This document shows, in pieces, positions 4,405 to 29,569 of a stretch of DNA of 30,271 nt. The stretch spans positions 1 to 30,271 of IMG/VR virus record IMGVR_UViG_3300024346_007609. One strand, 5' to 3'. Both the position numbers and the translations under genes were made by a program. Source of the DNA: a virus. Position 1 is the first letter of the stretch; every line of letters starts with the position of its first letter. The notes under the pieces were generated by a model. The model saw only the letters and a program-made list of their open reading frames with translations, was not told where the DNA came from and did not search any database.

Positions 4405-4405
4405 G

Positions 4406-11828: not shown

Positions 11829-11844
11829 ACGAGTTAACTATCTT

Positions 11845-11860
11845 TTAAGTCCAGTTCTTG
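11845..11860 (-). promoter_or_regulatory. Promoter-like/operator motif upstream of the giant tail gene
   Basis: On the minus strand the sequence is CAAGAACTGGACTTAA, with its first base 32 nt before the ATG at 11828. It matches 15 of 16 positions of the motif at 29549-29564 and 13 of 16 at 22350-22365. The shared 9-bp core CAAGAACTG is found three times in the window, always in a divergent gap. Whether it acts as a promoter, an operator or an RNA-level signal cannot be read from sequence. Confidence 0.6.
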
Positions 11861-11883
11861 GTTATGTCGAAATTTTGCCTCTC

Positions 11884-12274
11884 GCAACTGTCACCTGACA
11901 CCGGCAACTGTCCCGCCGTCAATAGACTCAGCGATACGCATGCATTCTGGCATACCCAGAACACCCACAACCCATGGTAAATTGGTGTTCTGGGTTTTAT
12001 TTTCCCCATATACCTCGCAAGCTTGAGTGGTCATAACCACTGGAGAAGAACCAAACCTCTCCGTATGAAATACCAAGCTGTGATAGGGAGCTCGCTAGTG
12101 GAAGAGTTGCCTTATACTTTGCATTCACTCCTTAGTGCTTTGGTGCTAACGATGTTTCCGCTGCTAACTGCAGCAGGCTCTGGCTCTCCCTGTCTGGTTG
12201 TCTACCTTCCTATAGGGAGAGTCTTATCTACTCCCTGTTAAGTGAGTAAGATTATGCAACAATCCCCTGACACC
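11884..12274 (+). repeat. Bipartite direct repeat GCAAC-N6-CTGACACC, two copies
   Basis: Copies lie at 11884-11902 and 12256-12274 on the plus strand, with identical half-sites and identical 6-bp spacing. They stand near the two ends of the intergenic region, one close to each divergent operon. A second short direct repeat, GCAACTGTC, occurs at 11884-11892 and 11904-11912. The arrangement suggests binding sites for a phage regulator; this is inference. Confidence 0.5.
11954..12000 (+). terminator. Intrinsic terminator-like hairpin, plus strand, with no gene upstream
   Basis: A perfect 12-bp stem pairs ACCCAGAACACC (11954-11965) with GGTGTTCTGGGT (11984-11995) around an 18-nt loop, followed by TTTATTTT. 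The minus-strand reading has no T-run after the stem, so it would terminate only rightward transcripts. No plus-strand gene precedes it, so it may end a short non-coding transcript or act as an attenuator in the leader of the 12310 operon. Confidence 0.7.
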
Positions 12275-12311
12275 ACCCATCCTCTCGGGGGCCGCTATCT
12301 CTGCCAGAGAT
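12026..12311 (+). other. Series of hairpins in the probable leader of the 12310 operon
   Basis: Reading rightward: AGTGGT/ACCACT with a 4-nt loop (12026-12041); GGAGA/TCTCC (12042-12062); GCTGC/GCAGC (12160-12174); a 12-bp stem with two G-U pairs joining 12182-12193 to 12212-12223; and ATCTCT/AGAGAT with a 3-nt loop (12297-12311) that covers the first two bases of the 12310 start codon. The last could modulate translation of the first gene. No known riboswitch or RNA family was recognised. Confidence 0.45.
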
Positions 12312-12702
12312 GATTCAAGCTGTGGACCTCATTCGTGACTTCATGGCCCAGAGAGTGGGCCTCAACTGCTCAGACAGCGGGCTGCTTAACTTGTTCCATC
12401 GTGGAAGCTTCGACATCTTGGTCAAAGCAGTGGACACCCACATGGTCCGTGGCTTTAATGCCAACAGGTCGTACATCTTGGCGAGGGAGGTGGGTGCACC
12501 CTCAATCATCCAGCTTCAGATCCAATTGGGTCCCATCCACAGTGCCACTCACATGGACTACCTCTTGCCTCAACGTGGTGATGATCCAGTGGTACTCTTT
12601 ATCAACGTGTTAAAGGACTATTTCCATGGCAATGATAATTTCTTCATTCCTAGTGGTGCTCAGATTGAATGGGGTGCCATACAGGCTTTGCTGGGTGAGT
12701 AG
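12310..12702 (+). CDS. Hypothetical protein, first gene of the plus-strand thyA operon
   Basis: A 130-aa soluble protein (MIQAVDLIRDFMAQ... to IQALLGE) with no recognised domain, signal peptide or membrane segment. The N-terminal half is predicted helical; the middle (PSIIQLQIQLGPI, DYLLPQRGDDPVVLFIN) looks strand-rich. The start codon is partly covered by a small hairpin and lacks a clear Shine-Dalgarno sequence. Its last codons form one arm of a hairpin (CTGGG at 12691-12695, CCCAG at 12707-12711) whose other arm includes the first base of the next gene's GTG start, which suggests translational coupling. Function unknown; the context with thyA suggests an early or middle gene. Confidence 0.7.
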   Translation: MIQAVDLIRDFMAQRVGLNCSDSGLLNLFHRGSFDILVKAVDTHMVRGFNANRSYILAREVGAPSIIQLQIQLGPIHSATHMDYLLPQRGDDPVVLFINVLKDYFHGNDNFFIPSGAQIEWGAIQALLGE

Positions 12703-12710
12703 TTACCCCA

Positions 12711-13609
12711 GTGACTGCTAAACAAGCCATAGATAGGACTGTAACTAGGAGGGATTTCAACCTCCCTGCCAACGCTATCAACGGATTACTGGCCTTGCTC
12801 TCTGTACAAGACCCCTTCCTGGAGAAACCAGAGGAGACTTATGAGATGATTGAGGACTTTGTTATTGACAACTTGGACTTACTACTGGACCAGACTATCC
12901 CCATGGCTACAGACGCTGTTAGTAGGAACAGCCAGCAATCTGAGAGACCTGACAGACCTCAGATCCTTCCCAACTTGGATATCTATATTCAAACTATGAC
13001 CATGATGGCAGCACTTACCATGGTTAACAGAATCATCAATCTTTCTGGCGCTAAAGACATGGTCCTTCAACGGTACTCAGAAGGTAGCATACGTGATCAT
13101 GTGATTACAAGAGTCAAAGCAAAAATTAAAGACATGGGATTTCACGCAACTGGACCGCTATTAGGACAGCTAAAAAAATCATTGCCAGCGTGTTGGAATC
13201 AGATGACTTGCCCATGGAACTGGGCATTGAGCTTACCTTGTTGGGTGATCCATTCCATGAGGATCCAAAACTTAACCTGGAGAAATACAAGCTTCTGTGG
13301 TCCCATGTCAAAAGCCAGATGCCTAAGATATGGAGGGGGGTCGCAGAAGAAATCGAACACGCCCGTGACATGTACAGTAAAGGAACCCTGAAGGTTCCAC
13401 CCCACCCGTGGGCTGGCAACGTTTCCATGGAGTATGCGCTTGAACAAAAGATGAAAAATGACTTCATCAGCCGCTCATATGACACCATGCACCACTTGGT
13501 CGATGGGGTTGGCATGACCTCCCTGGGTGATTGTGACATGAAAACTTTCCACGATATGGTTGAGATCATGCAGGACGACGCACACGACTTTTACCACATG
13601 CCCAAATGA
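12711..13609 (+). CDS. Two-frame gene joined by a -1 frameshift; function unknown
   Basis: The GTG at 12711 opens a frame of 226 codons ending at 13391, but coding character stops at about 13178. Beyond it the zero frame is rich in Trp and Cys and looks like noise, while the -1 frame gives a normal acidic protein (IIASVLESDDLPMELGIEL... to DAHDFYHMPK) ending at 13609, just where the next gene overlaps as ATGA. The switch sits on A AAA AAA (13172-13178) in the exact codon phase needed for -1 slippage, with AGGA at 13163-13166 upstream, as in dnaX-type sites. The joined product is 299 aa: 156 residues, then 143. A one-base loss in the A-run (true mutation or sequence error) would look the same. 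The fused protein matches no family I recognise. Confidence 0.7.
13163..13178 (+). promoter_or_regulatory. Candidate -1 ribosomal frameshift site (A AAA AAA with upstream AGGA)
   Basis: In the zero frame the codons read CTA AAA AAA TCA, so the heptamer is X XXY YYZ in the correct phase. AGGA lies 5 nt before the heptamer and could act as an internal Shine-Dalgarno stimulator. A weak hairpin (GCCCA/TGGGC, 13210-13225) lies 31 nt downstream, farther than usual for a stimulator. Confidence 0.6.
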
Positions 13610-14133
13610 GCACCACCAAATACACCAACAAACTCCTGGGTGTCACTGAGGCAGATGATAGCCTGCTCAATGATGTCTTGTATGGTCGTACCTTTATGGA
13701 TGACCGGGAGAAGAAGCAGGCTGCATGGAAGGCCTTTGTAGGCATGGACCTGGACGCCATTCTCAAGCAAGCCACCGGTTTAGATAACTTGGAGAAATTC
13801 AAGGGGACTTGGAAGGACAGTGACCATTGGGATGAACCTGGCACTGATGAGCGTGCCCAGTATGAGGAGGCCATGTACCCGGCCTTGGACATCTACTACC
13901 CAATTGAGGCTAGAAACACTGATGTGTATCTCAGACTCAGAGGCAAGGTGCAAAGGGCGGTTAATTACAAATTGTACGATTTGGGCTTTGATGAGAAAAA
14001 ATTGGGGTGGAACCCAGAAACGGGGAAAGATGTCATGGGCCAGATAAGAGGCCACATCGAAGGATATGTCAAGGGGTGGGTCAGTTACCGCCGCCTGGAC
14101 GACTATGACGCAATGGAGGTACTTTACAGATGA
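13606..14133 (+). CDS. Hypothetical protein of the thyA operon
   Basis: A 175-aa protein, ATG in an ATGA overlap with the frameshifted gene. It is acidic at the N-terminus, rich in Trp, Tyr and Asp, and has no membrane segment or catalytic motif I can identify. The C-terminal half (VQRAVNYKLYDLGFDEKK..., GYVKGWVSYRRLDDYD) looks helical. It ends in an ATGA overlap with the next gene, and the GGAGG that can serve that gene lies within its own last codons. Translation of the operon is therefore probably coupled. Function unknown. Confidence 0.7.
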   Translation: MSTTKYTNKLLGVTEADDSLLNDVLYGRTFMDDREKKQAAWKAFVGMDLDAILKQATGLDNLEKFKGTWKDSDHWDEPGTDERAQYEEAMYPALDIYYPIEARNTDVYLRLRGKVQRAVNYKLYDLGFDEKKLGWNPETGKDVMGQIRGHIEGYVKGWVSYRRLDDYDAMEVLYR

Positions 14134-14615
14134 AGATCACCCCAGAGGACATTATGTGGGGCATGGACCCATTCAAGGAAGACTTGGTTCTGGGGTTCAA
14201 GAAACTGCCCAACAAGGACCAACTCTTGCTCAAGGCAATCAAGTATGCCCTCTACCACCGTGGCTTCACCGGCAGTTTGGACGCGCCTGCCACCGCTGGA
14301 CTAAAGAAGTTCATGTCATCAGTGGGAGTGGACCACGGACCAGATTCCGACACACACCACTGGACACAGAAGGCTAACGACTTTGAAAAGTTGTTAAAGC
14401 AAAAAAACTTTGCCAGAGACGTGGTTGATGAGATGATGGTGGACTCATCCCTGCAAATGGAGAGGGACGGTTACACTCAACTTGAGAACTACCACATTCC
14501 TGACGAACTGATGCGGACCATAATCCAGTGGACCATGGCTGAGCTAGTGAGGCTTGGAATCCTACCTGACAGTGAGGAACTTAACAGAACGATAAGGGAA
14601 GTCTACCTGCAATGA
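14130..14615 (+). CDS. Hypothetical protein of the thyA operon
   Basis: A 161-aa, mostly helical protein (MKITPEDIMWGMDPFKED...). It is preceded by one of the few strong Shine-Dalgarno sequences of the window, GGAGGT at 14116-14121, which supports the ATG at 14130. It overlaps its neighbours by 4 bp on both sides. Charged helices such as LKQKNFARDVVDEMMVD suggest a protein-protein interaction role, but no family is recognised. Confidence 0.7.
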   Translation: MKITPEDIMWGMDPFKEDLVLGFKKLPNKDQLLLKAIKYALYHRGFTGSLDAPATAGLKKFMSSVGVDHGPDSDTHHWTQKANDFEKLLKQKNFARDVVDEMMVDSSLQMERDGYTQLENYHIPDELMRTIIQWTMAELVRLGILPDSEELNRTIREVYLQ

Positions 14616-15382
14616 GCACCAAACAGGAGTGGAGAGCACGCAGCCACCAATTGGGTGGACGACATGGCCTTCAGTGTGGCATGCTGGTGCCGTCTGGCAG
14701 TGCGGCTCACGTGGTGGTAAACATCGGCGGTTCACAGGTGAATCTTGGAGACCATGCCTTTCACAAGCACTTTATGTGCACTAGTGACTTCATGTACGCG
14801 TCAAGCCCCACATGGACCATTTGCAACCACTACGTGGATGTGGGTGGACTCTTGCCCGCGGGATTTGTGACTGAGACACTGGTGCCAAATATCATGGGGA
14901 AAAACATCGAGGACATGTCCCTGTTCCCACTAACATACATGGCCGCCAATACACCACCCGATAATAGGGGCCTGGCCTCCGTCTATGTTCGGGTTTCCAG
15001 CCCAGGAGAGAACGCAGCAAGCACAGCTGAATTGAAGAAAAGTTTTAAACTGAAGTGGCCCACTTATGCGGGTGATGAAGAGAATTATGAAGAGAATTTT
15101 GATGGGTGGTTGCAGGATGAATTGCGAATGGAGCCCGTGGACTTAGACTTGGAAACCCTAGTGGAATCCCTTGAGGAGCAGTATGGTCTCGTGGTTCCCC
15201 TGAAAGAAATCATGGGAAAAATTGCATACACCCTTTGTAAGGTCAGTGGAAAAGCCCTGGAAAATTGTTGGGCCTATGTTGAGGGAACCCAGTATGAGAA
15301 TGAGTACATCAAGATACTCACAGGTGGTGACATCCTAGACAGCCAGATTAAAGGGTTTACTTCCAAAATCCTAGGTGATTAG
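14612..15382 (+). CDS. Hypothetical protein of the thyA operon
   Basis: A 256-aa protein. The N-terminal half is His/Cys-rich and strand-like (HGLQCGMLVPSGSAAHVVVN, KHFMCTSDFMYASS, TICNHYVDVGG), the C-terminal half acidic and helical (EENFDGWLQDELRMEP, LETLVESLEEQYG). The clustered Cys and His could bind a metal, but no standard zinc-finger spacing is clear. It overlaps the upstream gene by 4 bp, with GGGA about 12 nt before the ATG. Function unknown. Confidence 0.7.
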   Translation: MSTKQEWRARSHQLGGRHGLQCGMLVPSGSAAHVVVNIGGSQVNLGDHAFHKHFMCTSDFMYASSPTWTICNHYVDVGGLLPAGFVTETLVPNIMGKNIEDMSLFPLTYMAANTPPDNRGLASVYVRVSSPGENAASTAELKKSFKLKWPTYAGDEENYEENFDGWLQDELRMEPVDLDLETLVESLEEQYGLVVPLKEIMGKIAYTLCKVSGKALENCWAYVEGTQYENEYIKILTGGDILDSQIKGFTSKILGD

Positions 15383-15396
15383 GTTCTTTATTGTCT

Positions 15397-15606
15397 ATGG
15401 ACAAAAAGCAAAAGCACGCCATCCACCTCCCCAATGGAAAATCGTACACTGTCCTTGTCACTGAGGAGCCCAAAATAAATGAAATTCGTGACTTCATGGC
15501 TGGACATGCGGCTGTGACTATCCAGATTGAGTTGGAACCAGGAAAAGAGGCCTCACTGCTTCTGTGGGGTGATGTGCTTAAGAATTCCTACATCACCGTC
15601 GAATGA
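15397..15606 (+). CDS. Small hypothetical protein upstream of thyA
   Basis: A 69-aa protein from the ATG at 15397 ([17 protein letters not shown]); a TTG at 15391 in the same frame would add two residues and has AGG at a better distance, so the start is uncertain. It is strand-rich, with [11 protein letters not shown] and [19 protein letters not shown]. It overlaps thyA as ATGA at 15603-15606. Function unknown. Confidence 0.6.
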
Positions 15607-16553
15607 CTCACGACTTCACCTACCTGGACCTGGTCAACAGGGTCCTCACGGAGGGGAAGCTTAAGAAAAACAGAACGGGCATTGATACCATTGGAATTTT
15701 TGGTGCTCAAGCCCGTTTTGATTTGGCTGATGGCTTTCCACTCCTCACCACCAAGAAAGTATTCTTCAAGGGTATAGTTCATGAGCTGCTCTGGTTTATC
15801 AGTGGCAGCACCAATATCAAGTACCTGGTGGACAACGATGTGCACATCTGGGATGATTGGGCCTATCAGCGGTACTTGAAATTTGTCTCTAAAATTGTGG
15901 TTGTGGGTGGAATTGATAAAACCACCTTGAGTAAAGAAGACTTCATCCATCGCATCAAGACAGTGGATGAATTTGCCAAAATTTGGGGAGATCTGGGCAT
16001 GGGCACGTATGGTGGCATGTGGCGTGCCTTCCCATTCCATAATGACTATGATAGAACCCCAGACACTGTCGATCAGCTGAGGAAAGTCATTGAGAAACTC
16101 AAGACTAGCCCAGATGACAGACGCCTCATTGTCTCAGCTTGGCATCCCCACTGGGTGGATCACTGTGCCTTGCCTCCATGCCATGTCTTGTTTCACTTCA
16201 ACACAGAGGTGCTCTCAGATGGGCGTAGAAAGCTCAACTGTCTGCTCTACCAGCGTAGCTGTGATCTCTTCTTGGGCGTGCCATTCAATATCGCCAGCTA
16301 TGCCTTGTTGACACACATGGTGGCCCATTGCGTGGGCATGGTTCCAGGTGAATTTATCCACACCTATGGAGACCTTCACCTCTATGTTAATCATGTGGAG
16401 CAGGCCAGACTACAGGCCACACGAGATCCACACTTGTCACCACAACTTGCATTGAACCTGGCAAAGAGAGACATCTTCCACTTCAATTATGATGACATAC
16501 AACTGATTGGATATAACAGTCACCCAGCCATCAAAGCTGAAGTGGCTGTCTAG
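15603..16553 (+). CDS. thyA: Thymidylate synthase
   Basis: A 316-aa ThyA-type enzyme, which methylates dUMP to dTMP with methylene-tetrahydrofolate and supports phage DNA synthesis. Hallmarks in order: KKNRTG (phosphate-binding Arg24), [28 protein letters not shown] (134-141), [14 protein letters not shown] (169-182), the catalytic cysteine in LPPCHV (Cys193), [13 protein letters not shown] (217-229) and DLHLYVNH (257-264). The segment at about 90-130 is longer than in E. coli ThyA (264 aa), making the length like that of the Lactobacillus enzyme. It is the last gene of the plus operon; its TAG overlaps the convergent nuclease stop (CTAG, 16550-16553), and a terminator follows inside that gene. 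The identification is firm. Confidence 0.97.
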
Positions 16554-17017
16554 AGACCAGCCTCTTTGTAAGTCAGCTTCACAGCGCCTGAGTCAATCAG
16601 GCGCTTTCTATTTTTAAGGTGGGCATCAGCGACCAAGGCCTTGTTCTCACCCAAGTACTTTACGGCCAGACCCTCCTCAACCATGGCCTGATTAAGAGAC
16701 TTGGTCATATTCTTTGGGTCCAGAATATCGCCTAAAATGCGACCAAATTTCTCAGTGGAGTCTGAGAGAACCGTTCGAATAATGACGTAGTTCTCACACT
16801 TTTCCACAAAGTGCTTGACATAGTCCTTGCTGCAGAGGCCAAAGACTTTCTCAACCTTGTCAGTGGTACGACTCTCTGGCGTGTCTATGCCATTGAATCT
16901 GACCTTTTGATTGGCCAGAACCACATCAAAACCAAGGTCAATGTCAACAACAATAGTATCACCATCAACCACTTGCTTTACACGGGCATGGTATTCGAAT
17001 GGCACAGTATCAGACAA
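16550..17017 (-). CDS. Staphylococcal nuclease-like (SNase/thermonuclease) protein
   Basis: A 155-aa protein with the SNase OB fold: [10 protein letters not shown] (13-22), [12 protein letters not shown] (39-50) and [10 protein letters not shown] (89-98). The catalytic set Arg40, Glu48 and Arg93 corresponds to Arg35, Glu43 and Arg87 of micrococcal nuclease, with Ca-site aspartates Asp20 and Asp45 in place. It should cleave DNA or RNA phosphodiesters. No signal peptide is present, so it acts in the cytoplasm, perhaps in host nucleic acid breakdown. No ATG fits; a TTG at 17017 overlaps the upstream gene by 8 bp, and a GTG at 17005 is the alternative. The 3' end carries the plus-strand thyA terminator within its codons. 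Confidence 0.88.
16583..16616 (+). terminator. Intrinsic terminator of the thyA operon, inside the SNase gene
   Basis: A perfect 9-bp stem, AGCGCCTGA (16583-16591) with TCAGGCGCT (16597-16605), has a 5-nt GTCAA loop and is followed by TTCTATTTTT. It lies 30 bp beyond the thyA stop and within the last codons of the opposing nuclease gene. The opposite reading has no T-run. The class is well supported. Confidence 0.88.
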
Positions 17018-17477
17018 TTACTTCTTCAAAGTCGAGACCAATGTCTTGACCTTTGTTCGTATGGAGATCCACAAGCTCTTGAGCGAGTTGAATAATTGAC
17101 CGACCGATTTGAGCTTCGCGATTATCTTCTGGAGCCAGTTCATGGGGTTCACCTAGGGTTACTTGTTTTGATTTTGGATCAGCTTGAAAAGAGACTGCGA
17201 GCATATCGTGGATGACATCATCAATGTGCTCCTTCACACTCTTTTTGCCACGGCAATGCCACTTCCTACGACTAAGGCAGTTTGGCTTGTTGCGGTCTTT
17301 GCCTCCACAGTCATAGCCAGCCTTCTGGGAGATTCCAGAGGATCTGGCACAATAGGAATCACCCGCAGAGGTACCAGGCTTGATCTTGTAGCCTTTGGCT
17401 CCATAGGAGACGGTTTTCTTCCTACCTGTTTTAGAATCAGTGTAGGACTTGGAAAATTTCTTACCTTTAGCTGGCAT
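17010..17477 (-). CDS. Small basic cysteine-containing phage protein, function unknown
   Basis: A 155-aa protein. The ATG at 17477 (MPAKGKKFSK) is preferred over an in-frame TTG two codons earlier. The N-terminal half is very basic (KTGRKKTVSYGAKGYKIKPG) and has GDSYCARSSGI and NCLSRRKWHCRGKKS. Cys43, Cys57, Cys67 and Cys75 could form a small metal site. This pattern resembles a conserved uncharacterised family seen in large aquatic phages. The C-terminal half is acidic and helical. It may bind nucleic acid, as an inference from charge, and overlaps the SNase gene by 8 bp. Confidence 0.65.
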   Translation of the reverse strand: MPAKGKKFSKSYTDSKTGRKKTVSYGAKGYKIKPGTSAGDSYCARSSGISQKAGYDCGGKDRNKPNCLSRRKWHCRGKKSVKEHIDDVIHDMLAVSFQADPKSKQVTLGEPHELAPEDNREAQIGRSIIQLAQELVDLHTNKGQDIGLDFEEVIV

Positions 17478-17489
17478 AGGCAAATCTAA

Positions 17490-18221: not shown

Positions 18222-18242
18222 GCTATACCTACGCGAGTAGTT

Positions 18243-18578: not shown

Positions 18579-20323
18579 AATAGGCACTCATATCGTGTGC
18601 CTTTGTCTTTTGTGTCTGGACCCAAGACAGGGAACACATACTCATACCCACGGATTTTCTCCAGCTTTTCTAAAAGAGCAAGCCCGTTCTTCTTTAAACG
18701 TGGGTGTTGTCTGTCGATGAACATAACAATCTCACACTCATTCTTGCCAGTTTTCTTTTGGCGAATGAAACGACCGATAATCTGAGACATCAACTCGTGT
18801 GATACCACGTGGTCAGCCACGATGCCTCCACGTATCTCATTTATGGAAACACCCTCCTTGACCAAAGGCGTGATCAGGACAGCTCCAGGCGTTTTCTTGA
18901 GCCACTCAAATGTCTCATCTCTTTCTTTGGAGTCGTGGGTTGAGAAAAGTATCTTCACCAACTCTGGCTTTACAAGCTTAGAAATGCTCGCTTGAAGGAT
19001 CAGAATGTGCAAGGTTCTTGTGGCCACAACCAACGTGGGATGGCCTTGATCAGAGAAGTGTTTGGCCCAGTCTGCAATGAGTTGGTTTCTTTCCTTGAAT
19101 TGAATGATGCCCAAGTCATTCACTCGTTCCAACAAACACCAGCGAGATTCAATCTCAACGTCATCATCATCCACTTGAACATGGTGCATGTTTTGTGTGG
19201 GTATCAACTCACCCTTTCTGTCTCTCTTCAAACCGTCTTGCTCACTCTCTTTATAGTCACCTGTCTTCTTATCTGGCTCTGCTTTCTCAAACACAGGTCC
19301 AACATACTTGGCTTTGGACCACTTGTTGTCAATCAACACCCAGGCTGGACTTTCCGGACGGGCGGTGTGGGGCAGATGTGAAAACCTATCTTTCCAATCC
19401 AAGTTGTCCACCACGTAGATTGTGGGTTTGGCCACACGACCCACTCGGATAAGAGGGTCGACTTCAACCCTATTTCGTATGGGACCGACTAAACCATGAA
19501 TCCTTGAAAAAGAAACCACATCGTCCTCACGAGTGGTGTCTGACGCACCCAGTCGAAAAAAGGCTGGAGTGGACAGGAGTATTCGTTGCCAACTCTCACT
19601 GGATGCATGATGATGCTCGTCGACCAACACTGTCATGAAAGTTCTGAACCACTTCTCGTATGTGAGTTCATCATAGTTTGCATGCATACATGCGGCTGTG
19701 GCCACCACCATGTCTTTGCCCTCACAGTTTTTCTTTCCACCGCCAAACTGGGTGATGTCCCAGTCAGGAAGAAACTTCTTGGACTCACGGTAGACTTGGT
19801 TGATAAGTCGTTCAGTGGGAGTCAAGTACAAAAAACGAGACTCAGGAAAACGCCGCTTGATCATGGCAGCAGCTGCACAAAACATGGCCGTCTTGCCACC
19901 ACTGACCGTGACCTTATGAACACCATGGCCATGATTCAACCAGGACGCAATGCATGACTTCTGGTTTCCATCCAGTTCAAAGTCAGAGACTAGTAAATCA
20001 TCAGGGACATCATCTACAACCAGACCATGAAACGGACTCTTGATGAGTTTTTCCTTGTCAACCTCAATGTGCAATGTCTTGCAAGCTTCAAGCACAGAGT
20101 CCTGCAAACCACGAAGGGCCTTTCCAGCTTGGGCAGCACTACGCTCAATCAGCTTCATGTAACCATCCCAACCCTTCTTGCCACCACTCATCTTGTAGAG
20201 CTGGTATGAATCGGCCCGCCAATAATTGGGTGGCCTTATCTTGGTGGCCTCAATGAGCGAAGACAGCTCTTTAGCATCACCCTCAATATGGATGTAGATA
20301 GCAGTCTCTCGTACAAAAATCAT
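18575..20323 (-). CDS. UvsW-like SF2 DNA helicase
   Basis: A 582-aa ATPase. After an N-terminal domain (about 1-110) come a Q-like LDGNQKSCI, a Walker A of unusual form, VTVSGGKTAMF (138-148), an LTPTERLINQV motif Ia, the DEHH box (235-238), a LGASDT motif III (258-263) and QIIGRFIRQKK motif VI (about 513). An insertion of about 100 residues rich in charged amino acids follows motif III. This layout fits the UvsW/SSL2-type helicases that unwind branched DNA in phage replication and recombination. Its ATG overlaps the FkbM stop as ATGA, so the two are cotranscribed. The 3' end overlaps the opposing small gene. A type III restriction subunit is less likely, as no methylase or nuclease partner is present. 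Confidence 0.85.
   Translation of the reverse strand: MIFVRETAIYIHIEGDAKELSSLIEATKIRPPNYWRADSYQLYKMSGGKKGWDGYMKLIERSAAQAGKALRGLQDSVLEACKTLHIEVDKEKLIKSPFHGLVVDDVPDDLLVSDFELDGNQKSCIASWLNHGHGVHKVTVSGGKTAMFCAAAAMIKRRFPESRFLYLTPTERLINQVYRESKKFLPDWDITQFGGGKKNCEGKDMVVATAACMHANYDELTYEKWFRTFMTVLVDEHHHASSESWQRILLSTPAFFRLGASDTTREDDVVSFSRIHGLVGPIRNRVEVDPLIRVGRVAKPTIYVVDNLDWKDRFSHLPHTARPESPAWVLIDNKWSKAKYVGPVFEKAEPDKKTGDYKESEQDGLKRDRKGELIPTQNMHHVQVDDDDVEIESRWCLLERVNDLGIIQFKERNQLIADWAKHFSDQGHPTLVVATRTLHILILQASISKLVKPELVKILFSTHDSKERDETFEWLKKTPGAVLITPLVKEGVSINEIRGGIVADHVVSHELMSQIIGRFIRQKKTGKNECEIVMFIDRQHPRLKKNGLALLEKLEKIRGYEYVFPVLGPDTKDKGTRYECLF
18582..18611 (+). terminator. Terminator-like hairpin after the 18243 gene, inside the helicase gene
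   Basis: AGGCAC (18582-18587) pairs with GTGCCT (18597-18602) over a 9-nt loop, and TTGTCTTTTG follows. It begins 4 bp after the plus-strand stop and lies within the helicase 3' codons, the same design as at thyA. The stem is short, so strength is uncertain. Confidence 0.55.
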
Positions 20324-20979
20324 AGATCGAATCGTGAGACCCAGGCGTCTAGTGGTCGGTGTCCCACTTGTTTACCATCAGGCTGGCTCCACCAGAAAAA
20401 CATCTGGTGTTGATGGGTTAACTTGTAGCTAAAATTAAATAAGTATTCACACATGGCTTGGTGCTTGGCCTGTGAGTCGTGTGTCTCTAGAAATATGGTT
20501 TTGAAAAAAGTTATGTCACGGCGATGTGCTGACCACAGAACATTGTACTCATAACCTTCTATGTCCATCTTCAGAACTGCGTTACCAGCGTAGGACTGGT
20601 GTCCATGAGTTATCTCCTCCAAAGGAATGCTAAAGATTTCAGAACCCTGGCCCACCTTTGAGTTGTTATCATCATCACTGATGAGAACGGGTTTATAGTC
20701 ATGGCTAACTGCACGATTATGAAGCACGAAACTGCTATGGTTACCAAAACAATGGTGCAATCTTTGGTAATTTTTAGCGTTGGGTTCAACACAAATTACT
20801 TTCTCAGCTTGACTATGAAAATGGGCCATGTAGGAAAAAGTGCCCATGTGAGCACCAATGTCTACCACAAGGTGGTCCTTAAAACAACCTGGAGATAAAC
20901 CATAGCAATTACGTGTGACAACTTCATCAAACACCCCTGGGTTCCCACCACGTAAAAAATCTAAGTCGATGTTACTCAT
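20320..20979 (-). CDS. FkbM-family SAM-dependent methyltransferase
   Basis: A 219-aa methyltransferase with a Rossmann core: motif I VVDIGAHMGTFS (38-49), the acidic CVEPN (63-67) that holds the SAM ribose, and the FkbM signature LKMDIEGYEYNVL (136-148). FkbM enzymes O-methylate sugars or polyketides. Next to a GT9 glycosyltransferase this suggests methylation of a glycan that the phage builds or alters. It lies 22 bp after the GT9 gene and overlaps the helicase start by 4 bp. The acceptor is unknown. Confidence 0.88.
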   Translation of the reverse strand: MSNIDLDFLRGGNPGVFDEVVTRNCYGLSPGCFKDHLVVDIGAHMGTFSYMAHFHSQAEKVICVEPNAKNYQRLHHCFGNHSSFVLHNRAVSHDYKPVLISDDDNNSKVGQGSEIFSIPLEEITHGHQSYAGNAVLKMDIEGYEYNVLWSAHRRDITFFKTIFLETHDSQAKHQAMCEYLFNFSYKLTHQHQMFFWWSQPDGKQVGHRPLDAWVSRFDL

Positions 20980-21001
20980 GTCTATCCTGTGTGATTCGCT
21001 T

Positions 21002-22344: not shown

Positions 22345-22371
22345 GACTACAAGAACTGTAGTTAGAGACGT
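22345..22371. promoter_or_regulatory. Divergent control site with CAAGAACTG motif and palindrome
   Basis: The plus strand holds CAAGAACTGTAGTTAG at 22350-22365, 22 nt before the ATG at 22372. Here the core is framed by a perfect 6-bp inverted repeat, ACTACA (22346-22351) and TGTAGT (22357-22362), around AGAAC. It fills almost the whole gap between two divergent operons and could serve either direction. Confidence 0.6.
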
Positions 22372-22752: not shown

Positions 22753-23318
22753 TGAACAGTCCGCTCATCACTGACAGCTCATTAGGCTCAGAAAGTTTCA
22801 AAATTCTGAGCCTTAATAATGCGTTGTATACTCACTCCTTGGAGGGTTTGAACGCCCACGACTCTGAAGGGGTTGTGGCCTACACCTTCACAGATTCTGG
22901 AGGCAACAGCCTGAGTGTCTATAGTCTGCTGATTGGTGGGCAAAATCAAAGTGGCACTGTACAAAAAGTCTACTTGCCTATAAAGAGCTTTGTTCCTGTG
23001 CCAACAGTTTCTGGTCTTTTTGAGTACAGCTTTGTGGGGCTTGGGTCTGTGCCCACGGCTGAGTCCACCAGTTCAACAAACATTGGTTTTCAAAGCCAAG
23101 ATGACTTTGATTTAGCTTTGGTAAATTTGACGTTAGAGATCAACTCAGACGCAAGTACCACAACCGATGAGAAAACAGCCATGACAAATCTTCTCAGTAT
23201 ACTACAGTATGGGTCTACTGACCAAGACTATAACCAAGTGGTAAATGGGGTTACCTACACCATTCACCTTACAGTCTACACTTCACAGGCTTACGTCCTT
23301 GTATCCTATCAAAGATGA
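22752..23318 (+). CDS. Predicted structural protein
   Basis: A 188-aa beta-rich protein with LNNALYTHSLEGL, VVAYTFTDSGGNSLSVYSLL and VQKVYLPIKSFVPVP, followed by a helical segment (DDFDLALVNLTLEINSD) and a strand-rich end. Hydrophilic, with no signal or membrane segment. It lies in a tight operon (TAATG before, ATGA after). The KVYLPI segment resembles the YYVPA and YSIPA segments of the next two proteins, which hints at a shared module. Virion role inferred. Confidence 0.55.
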   Translation: MNSPLITDSSLGSESFKILSLNNALYTHSLEGLNAHDSEGVVAYTFTDSGGNSLSVYSLLIGGQNQSGTVQKVYLPIKSFVPVPTVSGLFEYSFVGLGSVPTAESTSSTNIGFQSQDDFDLALVNLTLEINSDASTTTDEKTAMTNLLSILQYGSTDQDYNQVVNGVTYTIHLTVYTSQAYVLVSYQR

Positions 23319-23566
23319 GTGCTACTAGCATACTCACATCTGAAGAAACGTTGTCCTTAGAGCAACGGGCAACCCAAGCCCAGTCAGCTCTTGAGGAACA
23401 CGTTGAGCAGAACCATGGCCAAACACACTTAGGCCTGCTGATAACTACGCCAGTCAACCCATACAAGGACAGTGCGGGCCAAAGTTGGCCATCCAGCAGT
23501 GCCAGAGTTGTTGTTATACAGATCAGTGGTGTCAAGTACTATGTACCGGCTCAAATTGTGCCATGA
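23315..23566 (+). CDS. Small predicted structural protein
   Basis: An 83-aa protein with a helical first half (SEETLSLEQRATQAQSALEE) and a strand-rich second half ending in VVVIQISGVKYYVPAQIVP. It overlaps both neighbours by 4 bp. The end resembles a segment of the next protein (TLQIVANGQIYSIPASL), so the two may share a small virion module. Function unknown. Confidence 0.55.
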   Translation: MSATSILTSEETLSLEQRATQAQSALEEHVEQNHGQTHLGLLITTPVNPYKDSAGQSWPSSSARVVVIQISGVKYYVPAQIVP

Positions 23567-24663
23567 ACTCATCCCAACTGATAACGGCCAGTGATCTTGT
23601 GGCTATAGCCGCCCAAGTAGATCTGCTAGTGGCCAACGTAGAGGCCCACCGCAACTTAGGCCTGGCTGTTTCTCATGGCAACATTACCGTGGTGGATGAG
23701 GCTGTTTATGACAACAGTTCCACATATTTTGATGACTCACCCAATTCACCAATTGGCAATAGGGTTGGAACAGTCACCCTTCAGATTGTGGCTAATGGCC
23801 AAATCTATAGCATACCAGCCAGTCTGTCACTGTATGGTCCGCCAAGAGTTGGTACCATAACCCAGCAACTAAACACAGAGGCTTTTAGCTTTGCGTCTGC
23901 AGGAGACACTCAGCCCCCTGTTACTGTCACGTGTGAGTTCACAGCATCACAAGCCACCGTTGTAACATGGCAAGTGTATGTGGGCAGTGCTTGGGTTAGC
24001 ATGAACACCGTCTATTTTTATTTTGGCGGAGGCCAGTATTCTGGACACCAGACCCATGATTTTAGGGCTTCAACTGCTACATTCACATATAAGAATGCTG
24101 ATGGCTCCTCAGGCACTTCAACTGTTACGTCTGGCCTAGTTCAAAACACGACGCCCAGCTACACCGAGCCATCCGCTCAGACAGCATCACTAACGATGGC
24201 CTTCTTTACCGGTGACACCACTGGAAAGATAACTCTGGGCAAGATACGGTTAAAAATCGACAACTCGGCTATCGGTGGTGGAATTCGTTACTCAGGCGAA
24301 TGTACCGTCACTTTGGAAGACCAGACTGGTTCTTGGATAGTGTCAGCCATTGAACATCCCTGGACTGACCTGGAGCTCAAGAGACTATTTAGGTTTAAGA
24401 CATGGGCTTGCAAGCACCAAGCCTATGAAACGTCAATCTACAGAGGATCTTTGGGACGTCAACTAGTCGAGAGGATGGGGGCCAGATTCGTTGAATCTGG
24501 CCTAAAAGAAAAAGTCATCGCCATGCTGAATTCAAACATGACGATGACCCAAAGATACTCGACCTACAGGGCACTGATCAAAGAGTGCTTTAAGAAGTAT
24601 TGGCCTGATTGCCCCAATTCACACGTTCAAAAAGAATTAGGCCACAACGACGCCAATGTATGA
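23563..24663 (+). CDS. Predicted tail/virion structural protein
   Basis: A 366-aa protein. The ATG at 23563 (MNSSQLITASDL) is in an ATGA overlap with the preceding stop; an earlier in-frame ATG at 23485 would add a Cys-rich stretch that is only the other frame of the 83-aa gene. Residues about 1-95 hold a helix and the QIYSIPASL module, about 95-255 are beta-rich with Ig-like features (PPVTVTCEFTASQATVVTWQVYVG), and about 270-366 are helical and basic (LVERMGARFVESGLKEKVI, RALIKECFKKYW). The last 27 bp overlap the convergent fibre gene. A tail role is likely but unproven. Confidence 0.6.
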   Translation: MNSSQLITASDLVAIAAQVDLLVANVEAHRNLGLAVSHGNITVVDEAVYDNSSTYFDDSPNSPIGNRVGTVTLQIVANGQIYSIPASLSLYGPPRVGTITQQLNTEAFSFASAGDTQPPVTVTCEFTASQATVVTWQVYVGSAWVSMNTVYFYFGGGQYSGHQTHDFRASTATFTYKNADGSSGTSTVTSGLVQNTTPSYTEPSAQTASLTMAFFTGDTTGKITLGKIRLKIDNSAIGGGIRYSGECTVTLEDQTGSWIVSAIEHPWTDLELKRLFRFKTWACKHQAYETSIYRGSLGRQLVERMGARFVESGLKEKVIAMLNSNMTMTQRYSTYRALIKECFKKYWPDCPNSHVQKELGHNDANV

Positions 24664-25971
24664 GATGGCCACGCGAGTGTCTGCGACGTAACCAGCAGGC
24701 ATGGTTATCTGAACTGTCGCAGTTGGTGTGATCAACTTGGATGTCTGGCCAGCCGCCTGAAATGCATCATCCACCGTGACTGTCACGAAAGTATTGGATG
24801 TAGTAAATGGCGATGGCAAGGTAAGGACCAGGTTGCCTGTTCTCATCATCACCAACAGTTGGCCCTGAATTATTTTGAATGTGCTCGCACCCAGAGTGAG
24901 TGTGGTCACACCAACCGTATAAGAACCAGCACCATTGACAAGAGCAGCATAATTGCCTGAAAGAGAAGTGGTTGTGCCAGAGTAAGCGGTGGTAATGGTG
25001 GCAGTCGTGGAGGCAATGGACGCAGAACCACCCGTTGCGCCACTGATTCCTATTAGTCCACCGGGTGAAACACCCACGCCTGAGGATATTGTTCCACCAC
25101 CCGCTTGACTGTAGCCACTTGGGTTGGTGGCTGAGATTTGGTTGGTTGACGTCTTGGAAGCCACCGTAAAATAACCAGCAGTGGCAATGTAGATGACCTG
25201 GCCCACAGTCATCCAACTGTTGTCACCCACATAGATAGTCACACTGCTCGTTTCACCCGGCATGGTGAAGCTGGTGGTCACTGTGGTGTAAGCAGGGCTC
25301 CCAGCACCATTGCTGCCACTGTAACCTGAAAAACCAGAGGCACCCCGTGTGCCGGAGAAGCCAGAATTTCCAGATATGCCTGATGAACCCGAGAAGCCAG
25401 AGGAACCTCCGCCATTTGTAGATGTGGTAGGAATAAGCAGTGAACCTTGAACTACAGCCACAGGCCTCATGGTGATCTGAACATCAGCACAGACTTCAGC
25501 TGTTGCACTGCCGATGTTGGTCACCTTGATGATAAATTCACCTTCACCGTAGAAAGTTGTTTGTCCACTGACTTCACTCAGGGTAGAAGACACTGATGTG
25601 CCGGTGGAAGCTCCATAGGTGGATGACCACAAGACCTCAACACGTACAGTGTTAGAGGGCGTTGAAGCCACAATGCCATTCAAAACTCTCGCTTCAAAGC
25701 CAGAAGGTATGCGGTAGTTCAGCACCACTGTCGACTGTGAAGCTGACAGTGAGATGCGAGGAATTGGCAGGTCAATGATCTGCTCCTTGTTGTTGACTTC
25801 AGAGATGAGTTGGTTGATCACCTCAGCCAAGACGTTATCTCGTTCAGCAAGATTACGCGTGGAAAAAGATATGGATGTGGCTGAGTTTGCGTCTGTATTG
25901 GTAAGGTGTCTTACGTCACCGTTACCATATGGAAGCCCAGCAGCTTTTGGAAGTATAAGTGGAGTGATCAT
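24637..25971 (-). CDS. Fibre or decoration protein with short collagen-like segment
   Basis: A 444-aa protein. Residues 1-75 include SFSTRNLAERDNVLAEVINQ and a short helical region; about 75-180 form a beta domain (STVVLNYRIPSGFEARVLNG). Then come about ten Gly-X-Y triplets (GFSGSSGISGNSGFSG...), a module SFTMPGETSSVTIYVGDNSW-MTVGQ that matches one in the giant tail protein, a Gly/Ser/Thr-rich shaft and a beta C-terminus. It overlaps the HU-like gene by 4 bp and ends 27 bp inside the opposing gene. It is the last gene of the portal operon. A short virion fibre is the best guess. Confidence 0.68.
   Translation of the reverse strand: MITPLILPKAAGLPYGNGDVRHLTNTDANSATSISFSTRNLAERDNVLAEVINQLISEVNNKEQIIDLPIPRISLSASQSTVVLNYRIPSGFEARVLNGIVASTPSNTVRVEVLWSSTYGASTGTSVSSTLSEVSGQTTFYGEGEFIIKVTNIGSATAEVCADVQITMRPVAVVQGSLLIPTTSTNGGGSSGFSGSSGISGNSGFSGTRGASGFSGYSGSNGAGSPAYTTVTTSFTMPGETSSVTIYVGDNSWMTVGQVIYIATAGYFTVASKTSTNQISATNPSGYSQAGGGTISSGVGVSPGGLIGISGATGGSASIASTTATITTAYSGTTTSLSGNYAALVNGAGSYTVGVTTLTLGASTFKIIQGQLLVMMRTGNLVLTLPSPFTTSNTFVTVTVDDAFQAAGQTSKLITPTATVQITMPAGYVADTRVAISYIGVVVA
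24681..24722. other. Nested inverted repeat downstream of the 23563 gene
   Basis: CTGCGAC (24681-24687) pairs with GTCGCAG (24716-24722), and inside them TAACC (24689-24693) pairs with GGTTA (24703-24707). It lies 18 bp after the plus-strand stop, inside the opposing fibre gene, as do the terminators at 16583 and 18582. No T-run follows, so it is not called a terminator. Confidence 0.35.
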
Positions 25972-26303
25972 GGCTTGTAATTGTACTCGACCTTGTCCGA
26001 AAAGGACTTGTAGAGTTTAAGGTGAAAGCGAACACGTTCATCCAAGAAAAAGTATCTCTGTACTTTCTCAACACCAATCTTTGAACGCTTAAAATTCATG
26101 GATACTGACTTGCCCTTGATTATCTTGGGTGTGATGGATCCCACATGACCAAGGTTAACCTTGCTAAGATTTATGACAGCTTCCTCAACAAGTCCAATAA
26201 GACAATCATGGACCTTGTTGGCTTCAATATAGGACAACTCACAGTCTTCCATGAATCTGCGAATTATCTTAGCCTTCGTAATCGATTTGGACTTTTTTGT
26301 CAT
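25968..26303 (-). CDS. HU/IHF-like DNA-binding protein
   Basis: A 111-aa basic protein resembling the HU/IHF fold: N-terminal helices (KAKIIRRFMEDCELSYIEANKV, then HDCLIGLVEEAVINLSKVN) followed by LGHVGSITPKIIKG, which corresponds to the GFGSF turn leading into the DNA-binding arm, and a basic SMNFKRSKIG stretch. HU proteins bend DNA without much sequence preference. It sits between gp25 and a fibre gene with 4-bp overlaps, so it is expressed with virion genes and might be packaged or help DNA condensation. The usual RNP arm tip is not evident, so the call is moderate. Confidence 0.6.
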   Translation of the reverse strand: MTKKSKSITKAKIIRRFMEDCELSYIEANKVHDCLIGLVEEAVINLSKVNLGHVGSITPKIIKGKSVSMNFKRSKIGVEKVQRYFFLDERVRFHLKLYKSFSDKVEYNYKP

Positions 26304-26971
26304 GAATAGCTAAGGCCTAAAGTCAAAAACTGATTCAGCGCCTGAACCTGTATTGCAACGTTTATTTGACGTTGATTTGGCTGCCTCTCAGTGGTTATGG
26401 ATATCACACTGACTCTTGGTTCAAATTTTGCAATGGCCTGATTCACTTCTTGTTGTACTTGAGCTTCAAGAACAGAAGAGTCTAGTTCAAAGACCAATTT
26501 TCCAATCTGTGTACCAAATTCAGGACTCATCAGACGCTCGCCTTTCTGTGTGAGCAAAAGATTACGCAAGTCAGAAGATATTACCTGGATGTCTGAACCC
26601 CCATTTAGTATCCACCGACCAACAGAGGCATTTTCGGGCAATATTGGCCCACGCAGAAAACCTCTATTTTCTGTTAAAATAACTGCTGAACCCACATCGA
26701 GGTATATGACACTCAAGTCTGTCGTTGGAGTGGGCGATTTAAAATTTCTGCCCAACACCTTGATGACATAGAAACCCTTGTTGACATAGTTATGACTGTA
26801 AGTGCCAGTTACAACATTGTTCGACTTAAGAGCTGAAGGGATATCTGTAGTAGTTCCATCACCCCACTGAATGGTGCCAGTCAAATACGTAAGAGCTGTG
26901 TCAGTCTCAGTGAGTGTCACTGAGACTGATACTGTTTGGCTTTTTAACGTATGACTTGTCGTTGTCGTCAT
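26300..26971 (-). CDS. Baseplate wedge protein, gp25-like, with N-terminal PKD domain
   Basis: A 223-aa two-domain protein. Residues about 14-92 look like a PKD/Ig domain (IQWGDGTTTDIP at 34-45 and YSHNYVNKGFYVIKV at 58-72). Residues about 128-223 match the T4 gp25/P2 gpW baseplate wedge family: ISSDLRNLLLTQKGERLMSP, FGTQIGKLVFE, then a helix with QEVNQAIAKFEPRV and a closing beta hairpin. This family joins the sheath to the inner baseplate and is a mark of contractile tails. It overlaps the portal and HU-like genes by 4 bp. The PKD part is not in standard gp25 (T4 gp25 is about 130 aa). Confidence 0.85.
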   Translation of the reverse strand: MTTTTSHTLKSQTVSVSVTLTETDTALTYLTGTIQWGDGTTTDIPSALKSNNVVTGTYSHNYVNKGFYVIKVLGRNFKSPTPTTDLSVIYLDVGSAVILTENRGFLRGPILPENASVGRWILNGGSDIQVISSDLRNLLLTQKGERLMSPEFGTQIGKLVFELDSSVLEAQVQQEVNQAIAKFEPRVSVISITTERQPNQRQINVAIQVQALNQFLTLGLSYS

Positions 26972-28938
26972 TTGTTCAGTCGAGTATACTTACGCCAAGC
27001 CGGTTCACTGTCTTTATCAGATTCAAACACCGGTATTGGACCCTGATCTTGGGCCTGTGTCTGAGGCTTTTCTAAGGATTCTTTGACAAAGAGTGGCGTC
27101 ATCTTGATCCTCTGCTGGTTCTCATTAAGAGGTTTCTTAGGCCCGTCCAGGGCCTCCTTGCTGACCTCAAAACTATTACCGGCAACCATTCGTCCTTCAC
27201 CCCCTATCATGATGCCATCACCCTCACGAATACGAGGAACAGACAGCACGTCAGAAGCTCTACGGTACTTTTTCTTGGCATGATTATCCAAATGAGAGGC
27301 TTCCACGATTGACTTAATTTTCATCATGATTTGACTCTTTTCTGGGTCAAGACGTGAACTAATAGTTTCAAAGATCCTCTTCAGGTTGTCTGGATTGCCC
27401 TTAGCTTCAAAAGCGGGTGCTTCCATGGGTGAGGGCAACGCTGTCATAAAGACATTGACAACATTATCCGGCAACCTTAAGTACCGCTTGAATATGAGTT
27501 CAACCCAAGCTTCTTTAGGCAGGTTGTAAGCAGCCATCACGTCAGCTAACTTGCTAAGAATATCGGCCTGAGTGGCCAACAAGTCCAACTTCATCTGGTC
27601 TTCTAACCCACCAATGTCAGCCATCTTGGCTTGAATGTTCAGTGAATCCAGGTTGGTCTTGCCCTTAAGAATGGCATGAAAATTTCCCAACCAAGTGTAT
27701 TGGGAAAGGATTGGCTTACGAATGGACCTTACCTTGCGAAGGAAGCGAATGTCCTGAGCTAGCAATGATTTTCCAGAAGGTGCACCTCCACCACCAGAAT
27801 CACCAATGCCAAACCAACTCTTGGGCATGCCGATGATGGAATAGAAAAGGTCTGTCAGTAACTCAATGTCATAGACATCTGGAACATTGGCTGTGCCTGC
27901 GAGTTTTGTGATGGTATGCTGAAATCCCTTGGGCATTGCAACCCACAGGACTGAATCAAGCGCCCATGGGTTATAGAAGCTCTTGAAGTCGGTGGGAGCT
28001 GACATGCTGTCTGTGTCACCTCGTCCAAATGACTGCTTGCTACGAAGCATCTGCTTCCACCGCTGTACCGTACGCATCTGGTCAGCTGGGGCTTGTTCCT
28101 GCACGTCAATGTTGATTACATAACGATCAGGCTGAACTTGAGCTCGGTGCACAACCATCTGGTCCACGGCCATGCGAAGCTTCTTGTAGATTCCTTGTGC
28201 TTCATCATAGATTGCTTCACCATATTCAGATGTACGCATGCGGAACATACGGCGCATGTGGAGCATATCCCATGGGTACCATAGGTCTTCACTACGTCCT
28301 TGTGTAGCGGCAATAGAAGCGCGTGGAATCTCTGTGATACCGTCAGCTGCCACGAAAATATCGTTAGCCCGTGGCTTCCTCTCTGACCATTTGAAGCCAA
28401 CGCACTGGCGATTCTTTTCTAGCCAATAACGACGGACACTCTTTGGATGAATAAAGTGTAGACCTAAGACACCTTCACCCTGAGCATACTCAATCTTCTC
28501 ATAGTGGTTTCCAAGAGCAGCCAGGTACCAGACCTGTGAATTGAGAATATCTTCAACCCCAACACGGTCAAGCATCTCGTTAAGATCATCTTCAAACTCA
28601 GAATCATTGCATTCAAACCAAAGTGTTCCAGGGTTGATTGGATCACGTTGTGTGGCTTCCTCTACCAACTCAGTCAGAGCGGCAGCCATCATGTCCCAAG
28701 TTCCCATCTCCTCCCACAGATCAAGCACTTGATCCATGGACGTGGGACGCTTCATGATTGTCGAGTACTTCGTCCACGTGTCTGGATTAGCCACACGACT
28801 GGCGTCCATGAAGTCGTCTGTCAGCTCCTGGTTTGCTGATGCGGTGTTTGCACGAGGAATAATCGAGCTGATCGGGTCTCCCGAGCCAATAAAGCCCATC
28901 CGTCTCAGCAATTCTGTCCCTATGGTGCTAAATTTCAT
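26968..28938 (-). CDS. Portal protein, T4 gp20-like
   Basis: A 656-aa protein with the portal pattern of large myoviruses: N-terminal WEEMGTWDMMAAALTELVEE, wing segments (EDILNSQVWYLAALGNHYEK, LHFIHPKSVRRYW), AVDQMVVHRAQVQPDRYVI, then the crown and stem region with YDIELLTDLFYSIIGMPKSW and a long helical stretch. Twelve copies would form the DNA channel at the capsid vertex. It is longer than T4 gp20 (524 aa), partly through a disordered C-terminal tail rich in Pro, Gln and Lys. It is the first gene of a four-gene operon, with CAAGAAC 2 bp before the ATG. Confidence 0.88.
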   Translation of the reverse strand: MKFSTIGTELLRRMGFIGSGDPISSIIPRANTASANQELTDDFMDASRVANPDTWTKYSTIMKRPTSMDQVLDLWEEMGTWDMMAAALTELVEEATQRDPINPGTLWFECNDSEFEDDLNEMLDRVGVEDILNSQVWYLAALGNHYEKIEYAQGEGVLGLHFIHPKSVRRYWLEKNRQCVGFKWSERKPRANDIFVAADGITEIPRASIAATQGRSEDLWYPWDMLHMRRMFRMRTSEYGEAIYDEAQGIYKKLRMAVDQMVVHRAQVQPDRYVINIDVQEQAPADQMRTVQRWKQMLRSKQSFGRGDTDSMSAPTDFKSFYNPWALDSVLWVAMPKGFQHTITKLAGTANVPDVYDIELLTDLFYSIIGMPKSWFGIGDSGGGGAPSGKSLLAQDIRFLRKVRSIRKPILSQYTWLGNFHAILKGKTNLDSLNIQAKMADIGGLEDQMKLDLLATQADILSKLADVMAAYNLPKEAWVELIFKRYLRLPDNVVNVFMTALPSPMEAPAFEAKGNPDNLKRIFETISSRLDPEKSQIMMKIKSIVEASHLDNHAKKKYRRASDVLSVPRIREGDGIMIGGEGRMVAGNSFEVSKEALDGPKKPLNENQQRIKMTPLFVKESLEKPQTQAQDQGPIPVFESDKDSEPAWRKYTRLNK

Positions 28939-28977
28939 ATGTTCTTGTAAACTAAGGTAGAGTATGTTCTCTTAACC
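28939..28977. promoter_or_regulatory. Divergent gap between portal and 28978 gene, partial motif
   Basis: The 39-bp gap holds the minus-strand word CAAGAAC (28941-28947), the first 7 bases of the motif seen in the other divergent gaps, but without the TG that follows. The word TATGTTCT is repeated directly at 28938-28945 and 28963-28970. Both point to regulator or polymerase contacts, with less support than the other sites. Confidence 0.4.
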
Positions 28978-29253
28978 ATGACAGAACTAGGTAACCAAAA
29001 CATTCGTAGTAAGGTTAAGACACCAGGAAAAGAAGAAATCATTGCCTTTAGACTAGAGAAGAACGACTGCATTGGCTTAGATAAGGCCATACAAGATCTT
29101 GGGATTAAGAGCGTCAAGTCACGTGGACACGTGAGCCGTAAGATTGTTAAGGACTTTCTCATGGGTCGACTGGTGTACATCACACCGGAACACCTGTCGT
29201 TGGACCCTGCTCGGAATCATCCGATCCACCCAGGTCTTGTGGATTTAGTTTGA
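28978..29253 (+). CDS. Small hypothetical protein, possible DNA-binding regulator
   Basis: A 91-aa basic protein (MTELGNQNIRSKVKTPGKEE...). A strand followed by two helices (EIIAFRLEKNDCIGLDKAIQ, then SRGHVSRKIVKDFLMGRL) gives a faint ribbon-helix-helix look. It is read divergently from the portal gene across 39 bp, a common place for a regulator. Its last 74 bp overlap the opposing 121-aa gene. Function unproven. Confidence 0.55.
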   Translation: MTELGNQNIRSKVKTPGKEEIIAFRLEKNDCIGLDKAIQDLGIKSVKSRGHVSRKIVKDFLMGRLVYITPEHLSLDPARNHPIHPGLVDLV

Positions 29254-29545
29254 CTCTAAAAGCAAAGTGAGTCTGGCCCTTCTGCTCAAAAGAGAATGAA
29301 GTGTTCGGCTCAGCAATAAAAGCCTTGATCACATCCACTTGCTCTTGAGGAACTTTTCTAAAGAGCAGTTCAACGATGTAGTCATTACCCTCCTTAAGGA
29401 TCTGAGTGGCCTCAAGAAATGACATCAAGGCTGGAGATGTCATGAGTCTCAACAGAAGACGGTCCATGTAGGCTTTGGCCTTTTCATCCAAAACCTCACT
29501 GGCTGTATCTTCCATCAGAAATTGTAAAATTCGATCAATTGTCAC
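29180..29545 (-). CDS. Hypothetical protein with its own motif-bearing upstream site
   Basis: A 121-aa protein with a GTG start at 29545. The N-terminal part is helical (MTIDRILQFLMEDTASEVLD, AYMDRLLLRLMTSPALMSFL), then a strand region (DYIVELLFRKV, HFAFRVKLNPQDL) and a disordered acidic end. The last 74 bp are shared with the opposing 91-aa gene, and both ends read as plausible protein. It is preceded by the best motif copy in the window. Function unknown; closeness to the portal suggests a head gene, as a guess. Confidence 0.6.
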   Translation of the reverse strand: MTIDRILQFLMEDTASEVLDEKAKAYMDRLLLRLMTSPALMSFLEATQILKEGNDYIVELLFRKVPQEQVDVIKAFIAEPNTSFSFEQKGQTHFAFRVKLNPQDLGGSDDSEQGPTTGVPV

Positions 29546-29569
29546 GGCTTAAGTACAGTTCTTGAATTT
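29546..29569. promoter_or_regulatory. Divergent gap with CAAGAACTG promoter-like motif
   Basis: The 24-bp gap between two GTG-started genes contains, on the minus strand, CAAGAACTGTACTTAA (29549-29564), 19 nt before the 29545 start. It differs at one position in 16 from the site before the giant tail gene. In so short a gap a promoter here would give a very short or absent leader. Confidence 0.55.

Follow-up and report, generated by a model that had tools for sequence, protein, structure and literature searches.

A recurrent 9-mer in the divergent gaps of an uncultured phage as a probable overlap of two opposed core promoters

The 9-mer CAAGAACTG occurs exactly three times in a viral DNA stretch of 30,271 nucleotides (IMG/VR record IMGVR_UViG_3300024346_007609, analysed whole and called the window here), at 11852-11860 (minus strand), 22350-22358 (plus) and 29556-29564 (minus), in each case in a gap before a start codon. 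At the second and third of these sites we read it, from sequence comparison and with a probability of about 0.68, as the overlap of two opposed core promoters, L (TAnTTA) and M (GTTCT), of which L would be late and both near-leaderless. L, in its best form GTAGTTA, would be a lone -10-type promoter of virion (late) genes with RNA beginning at the start codon or a few bases from it, giving leaderless mRNA. M (GTTCTT/A) would serve mostly replication and metabolic genes and would likewise be near-leaderless. Back to back within 24-27 bp, the two would admit a single polymerase at a time, making the two directions mutually exclusive. At site 1, L would be a separate TAGTTA.

The window, a piece of a phage genome, carries genes for a T4-type portal (PF07230) and a UvsW-like helicase together with a gp25-type baseplate gene. 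It also encodes a GT2 glycosyltransferase (2734-4443, minus), a thymidylate synthase (15603-16553, plus), an FkbM-type methyltransferase (20320-20979, minus) and an HU-like DNA-binding protein (25968-26303, minus). It is far from any named phage, the best portal match being 21% identical (LR756511, an uncultured 595-kb record), and the group is one of large, little known bacterial viruses from metagenomes only. Genes were called in the window and its relatives with a simple codon-score script, and the start codons are those predicted. At 23315-24663 (plus) an 83-aa ORF runs into an overlapping frame of some 370-390 aa that is in a different phase, and the relative G001 has the same layout; the true start of the second gene is probably the ATG near 23563 (MNSSQL).

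The relatives are IMG/VR metagenomic fragments, and some of the 17 records overlap in content. Close relatives share sites and are thus not independent samples. Records G018, G020, G021, G022, G023 and G024, found solely via the sigma-like protein described below, were used as an independent test set. Every hexamer was counted, unbiased, in the 40 nt before the starts of 12 related phage records. Orthologue counts were read by eye, setting aside partial matches and an extended frame in G014.

We rejected CAAGAACTG as the functional unit. It stands 32, 22 and 19 nt before the start at the three sites, so the offset is not fixed. The 93.6-kb G001 carries four exact copies, two orthologous and two elsewhere inside reading frames, which speaks against a genome-wide motif. 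In distant phages, the upstream stretches examined for orthologues of the genes at sites 1 and 3, of the portal gene and of the 444-aa gene lacked the 9-mer; most distant orthologues of the latter two keep TAnTTA before the start. Both copies for which the initial annotation had proposed the longer form CAAGAACTGKACTTAA fit it completely and the third does so with two mismatches, and all three sites were found again in close IMG/VR relatives. The CAAGAAC pointed out before the portal gene reads CAAGAAA in G001, and this word is altogether in slight excess only (9 versus 5.45 by chance). An operator dyad was also considered, and inspection by eye of the three sites gave no consistent one. Neither box of a sigma70 promoter (TTGACA/TATAAT with a spacer of about 17 bp) was found at the three sites. 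The suggestion of a phage-specific promoter, neither standard sigma70 nor the T4 box TATAAATA, is thus supported as far as sequence can tell, but the unit had been misdrawn, the conserved core being TAnTTA at 10-13 nt before the start. A fixed offset and copies outside genes, by which the initial annotation was to stand or fall, are lacking in the 9-mer and present in TAGTTA.

TAGTTA was the top upstream hexamer in 11 of the 12 records, with TACTTA, TATTTA and TAATTA as variants. Its counts exceeded expectation in close relatives (10 versus 0.35 in G001, 5 versus 0.23 in G002) and in distant ones (6 versus 0.21 in G012, 12 versus 0.34 in G013, 11 versus 0.68 in G014, 12 versus 0.37 in G015). 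In the independent set it came first again in G018, G020, G021, G023 and G024 (P 6e-14 to 5e-26), and in G022 (L159-L170, 224,954 bp), which has the most divergent promoter set, it is replaced at offset 10 by TAGGTA, TACTTA and TAATTA. Of 710 upstream regions, 28 have it at precisely 10 nt and 12 at 13 nt, the second peak; TATTTA, TAATTA and TACTTA also peak at 10 nt. The logo of the 28 sites reads GTAGTTAnnnY directly followed by the start codon RTG; it is flat upstream of -11, with no conserved -35. The pattern TAGTTANNNYRTG gave 103 matches in the 17 records versus 7 for a reversed control, the corresponding numbers for T4 being 0 and 3, and words like TATAAATA were absent from the top enriched upstream words of the related records. 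Genes with assignable function that follow L encode portal, tail fibre and baseplate wedge, and L also precedes giant structural-type genes. A literature search for a TAGTTA phage promoter returned nothing relevant at the level of titles and abstracts. The elements in the window and the features next to them are as follows.

2277..2282, minus strand: further L element TAATTA, 10 nt before the GTG (2272) of a tail-fibre-like gene
11835..11840, minus strand: site 1, L element TAGTTA, 12 nt before the ATG (11828) of a 2225-aa gene
11854..11859, plus strand: site 1, possible M element GTTCTT inside the 9-mer, upstream of a predicted short terminated plus-strand transcript; weak
11954..12003, plus strand: site 1, intrinsic terminator hairpin with T-tract, 12-bp stem, z -3.9
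22345..22371, no strand: site 2, divergent gap of 27 bp with both elements back to back
22351..22356, minus strand: site 2, M element GTTCTT, 12 nt before the ATG (22344) of a 72-aa ORF
22359..22364, plus strand: site 2, L element TAGTTA, 13 nt before the ATG (22372) of a 126-aa gene
28966..28970, plus strand: further M element GTTCT, 12 nt before the ATG (28978) of a 91-aa gene divergent from the portal gene
29550..29555, minus strand: site 3, L element TACTTA, 10 nt before the GTG (29545) of a 121-aa gene upstream of the portal gene
29558..29563, plus strand: site 3, M element GTTCTT, 12 nt before the GTG (29570) of a Nudix-type gene

CAAGAAC is the reverse complement of GTTCTTG. Since GTTCTTG is found 12 nt upstream of the divergent start codon of both site 2 and site 3, the 9-mer there is explained as a back-to-back overlap of opposed elements. 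The opposite strand of site 2 reads GTTCTTGTAGTC-ATG and the plus strand of site 3 GTTCTTGAATTT-GTG, with GTTCTT at 12 nt in both. In relatives the core of both sites is invariant and the flanking spacers vary; among four haplotypes of site 2, every substitution falls outside the 16-bp core ACAAGAACTGTAGTTA. The 72-aa ORF of site 2 leads a run of glycosyltransferase, methyltransferase and helicase genes. The divergent pair of 126-aa gene and glycosyltransferase is kept in distant phages, and the glycosyltransferase orthologues of G013, G020, G023 and G024 have GTTCT 12-15 nt before the start. Six of seven distant orthologues of the site-3 gene have TAGTTA or TAATTA, placed 10-11 nt ahead of the start.

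At site 1 the TAGTTA 12 nt before the ATG is invariant in relatives, and the ACTTAA half decays (GACTTA, GACTCA, GTTTCA). All six distant orthologues of the giant gene examined carry TAnTTA 10-14 nt before the start. On the plus strand, an ATG 10 nt downstream of GTTCTT is not conserved in G001. The terminator hairpin persists in G001 despite sequence change, with no other plus-strand gene upstream, and since this stem survives, a short plus-strand transcript is implied. GTTCTT would be its obvious start, so that M at this site probably begins a short terminated RNA. The claim that the 9-mer heads virion operons fits site 3, where the genes that follow on that strand include the portal and the gp25-type gene. 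It probably fits site 1 as well, and it may hold at site 2.

M is itself enriched in the related phages, as GTTCT(A/T) 12-15 nt before another set of genes, with 12 nt as the commonest offset. These genes include GroES, SbcD, a replication-initiation protein, a helicase and RuvC; terminase and baseplate-hub-like genes are also among them, and M can therefore not be purely early. The 91-aa gene (28978-29253, plus), on the strand opposite to the portal gene, occupies the same place in distant phages, and its orthologue in G013 (E 2e-13) also diverges from the portal gene with GTTCT 12 nt before the ATG. An 82-aa minus-strand ORF at 28935-29183 had been considered as a gene of the portal operon; the conserved gene is the opposite-strand 91-aa ORF, and the minus-strand one is probably spurious. 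No -35 box was found at 17 bp from M. The words GTAAAC/GTTTAC are enriched before genes in G012-G015, and at 6 of 113 M sites GTAAAC, which is perhaps a regulator site or a -35-like box, has its end 12 nt upstream of GTTCT.

Pairing of L and M was evaluated in the 113 divergent gaps of ten records. Fourteen gaps join the two versus 5.4 by permutation (p=5e-5), and in gaps of up to 60 bp the numbers are 10 versus 4.5 (p=0.002), the tightest gaps being 14 and 16 bp. This bears on an alternative in which the CAAGAAC half, instead of being an M promoter, would be an activator or operator site peculiar to this phage clade, by which L is boosted or repressed. Such a role would suit the retention of CAAGAAC at three L sites in close relatives, an M element without a clear -35 and the lack of a conserved start codon after GTTCTT at site 1. 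We nevertheless consider it unlikely, at perhaps one chance in five, as other L sites of the same clade have no CAAGAAC, as GTTCTT stands at two sites exactly at the offset commonest elsewhere before the divergent start, and as the pairing exceeds chance in many phages and a terminated plus-strand transcript is implied at site 1.

The surroundings of TAnTTA bear on whether it acts in transcription or translation. All 44 genes with TAnTTA at 10 nt have a pyrimidine directly before the start codon, versus 72% of all genes; in the independent set the figures are 59 of 63 and 69%. A pyrimidine at -1 is the usual signature of a transcription start. Shine-Dalgarno-like words at -18 to -5 are about as frequent as in a control stretch, with no excess. 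Together with the missing -35, this suggests a lone -10-type late promoter and leaderless mRNA; in the class at 13 nt, a start exactly at the start codon looks the same as a leader of 2-3 nt. Near-leaderless starts seem to be general in these phages, because the sigma70-like sites of G001 (TTTACA/TATACT), a separate class, also have their -10 box 13-14 nt before the ATG. TAnTTA could alternatively be a translation-initiation signal, i.e. a non-Shine-Dalgarno ribosome-binding box at -10 to -5, as it is locked to the start codon at the Shine-Dalgarno position in phages without such signals. We regard this as improbable. TAnTTA precedes merely some 12% of genes (168 of 1373) and is rare before overlapping tandem genes (4 of 201, versus 31 of 170 divergent starts), which need translation and no promoter. 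Furthermore, its offset is bimodal and not broad, two copies directly follow intrinsic terminators, and it pairs with an opposed element, points that join the pyrimidine at -1 in favouring the promoter reading.

Mere chance recurrence in a 30-kb window is very improbable. The excess alone is mild, with 0.55 copies expected (under one, as had been estimated) and three or more in 1 of 100 dinucleotide shuffles; the word was chosen post hoc, and its partial match at site 1 decays in relatives. At sites 2 and 3, however, the core is invariant amid variable spacers with both halves matching independently enriched elements, so that chance is largely refuted there; the site-1 match may be partly fortuitous.

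L is probably read by host RNA polymerase with a phage sigma-like protein, by analogy with known late transcription. The one weak match to the profile of T4 gp55 (phrog_234; E 0.001) was a protein that is conserved among many of the phages. The N-terminus of this protein is closest to gp55 among the PHROGs (best E 4.6e-4, a weak similarity), and its C-terminus matches the Mor-family HTH (phrog_836, best 2e-10; PF08765, 8e-5); its weak tblastn partners are named Mor-like. The AlphaFold model of the 346-aa protein is confident over residues 21-110 (pTM 0.36), and the 50 best PDB neighbours of the model are sigma factors or sigma-containing models (best probability 0.99, none at E<=0.001). Its own gene is preceded by M at 12 nt in G001, and the G022 and G001 proteins share 38% identity. 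That this protein reads TAGTTA we infer from the analogy with gp55. A gp55-gp33 fusion was considered and dropped: T4 gp33 corresponds to phrog_254 and PF16805, and the candidate has no PF16805 match and resembles Mor at its C-terminus. Whole-record searches for Sigma70_r2 and a second late-sigma PHROG gave no matches, nor did one for gp45 (phrog_223), the control for which was uninformative. RpoB (PF00562) was absent from 10 records, with the control positive in 14 of 14 genomes, a search that very divergent subunits could escape.

The late promoters of T4 have a TATA box of 8 bp, which gp55 recognises together with gp33 and the sliding clamp gp45 (PMC2988020); this is a lone -10-type box (PMC2988020; PMC7892883). 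As in T4 (PMC2988020), the predicted promoter L is one -10-type box roughly a helical turn ahead of the start, has no -35 and stands before virion genes; the portal and baseplate genes are also T4-type, and the N-terminus of the candidate is closer to gp55 than to any other PHROG. Unlike in T4, the box is TAGTTA, RNA would start at the start codon, and the candidate sigma is a single chain that carries a Mor-like HTH; no homologue of gp33 or gp45 was found. The late promoters of the jumbo phages phiKZ (TATG) and AR9 (AACA-N6-TA/G) are likewise short phage-specific motifs that lie a constant few bases from the start site (PMC5312081); they are read by phage multisubunit RNA polymerases, whereas no RpoB-type gene was found here, and the leaders of AR9 are 26-491 nt long. 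For E. coli, Warman, Grainger and colleagues described bidirectional promoters with divergent starts over overlapping -10 elements and exclusive binding (PMC12825309). The gaps described here are similar in having predicted divergent starts close together over overlapping putative core elements, but in E. coli one near-symmetric sigma70 element serves both strands, and here TAnTTA and GTTCT abut and apparently belong to different gene classes.

A wider scheme, which we put forward tentatively and hold to be less probable than its negation, is that a single-chain late sigma (gp55-like region 2 plus Mor-type HTH) drives leaderless late mRNAs from a lone TAGTTA, that abutting TAGTTA/GTTCTT in 14-27 bp form compact early-late exclusion switches across the group, and that in G022 the sigma and its TAGGTA-type box changed together. 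If true, opposed promoters that abut in this way would act as a very small switch from early to late. A review of T4 late transcription asked why natural examples of a fused late sigma are lacking (PMC2988020); the protein described here is a single-chain late-sigma candidate, though not a gp55-gp33 fusion. The lone late -10 box idea of T4 would be separated from its known consensus. For an uncultured phage group, a transcription plan with start sites, likely late genes and corrected start codons becomes readable from the genome.

Additionally, an Rfam scan of the window gave no match, including for a conserved non-coding segment at 12005-12235 (plus) that has high identity to G001. This segment folds better than its shuffles, with z -4.0 on the plus strand and z -1.5 on the minus strand, and is a candidate structured RNA.
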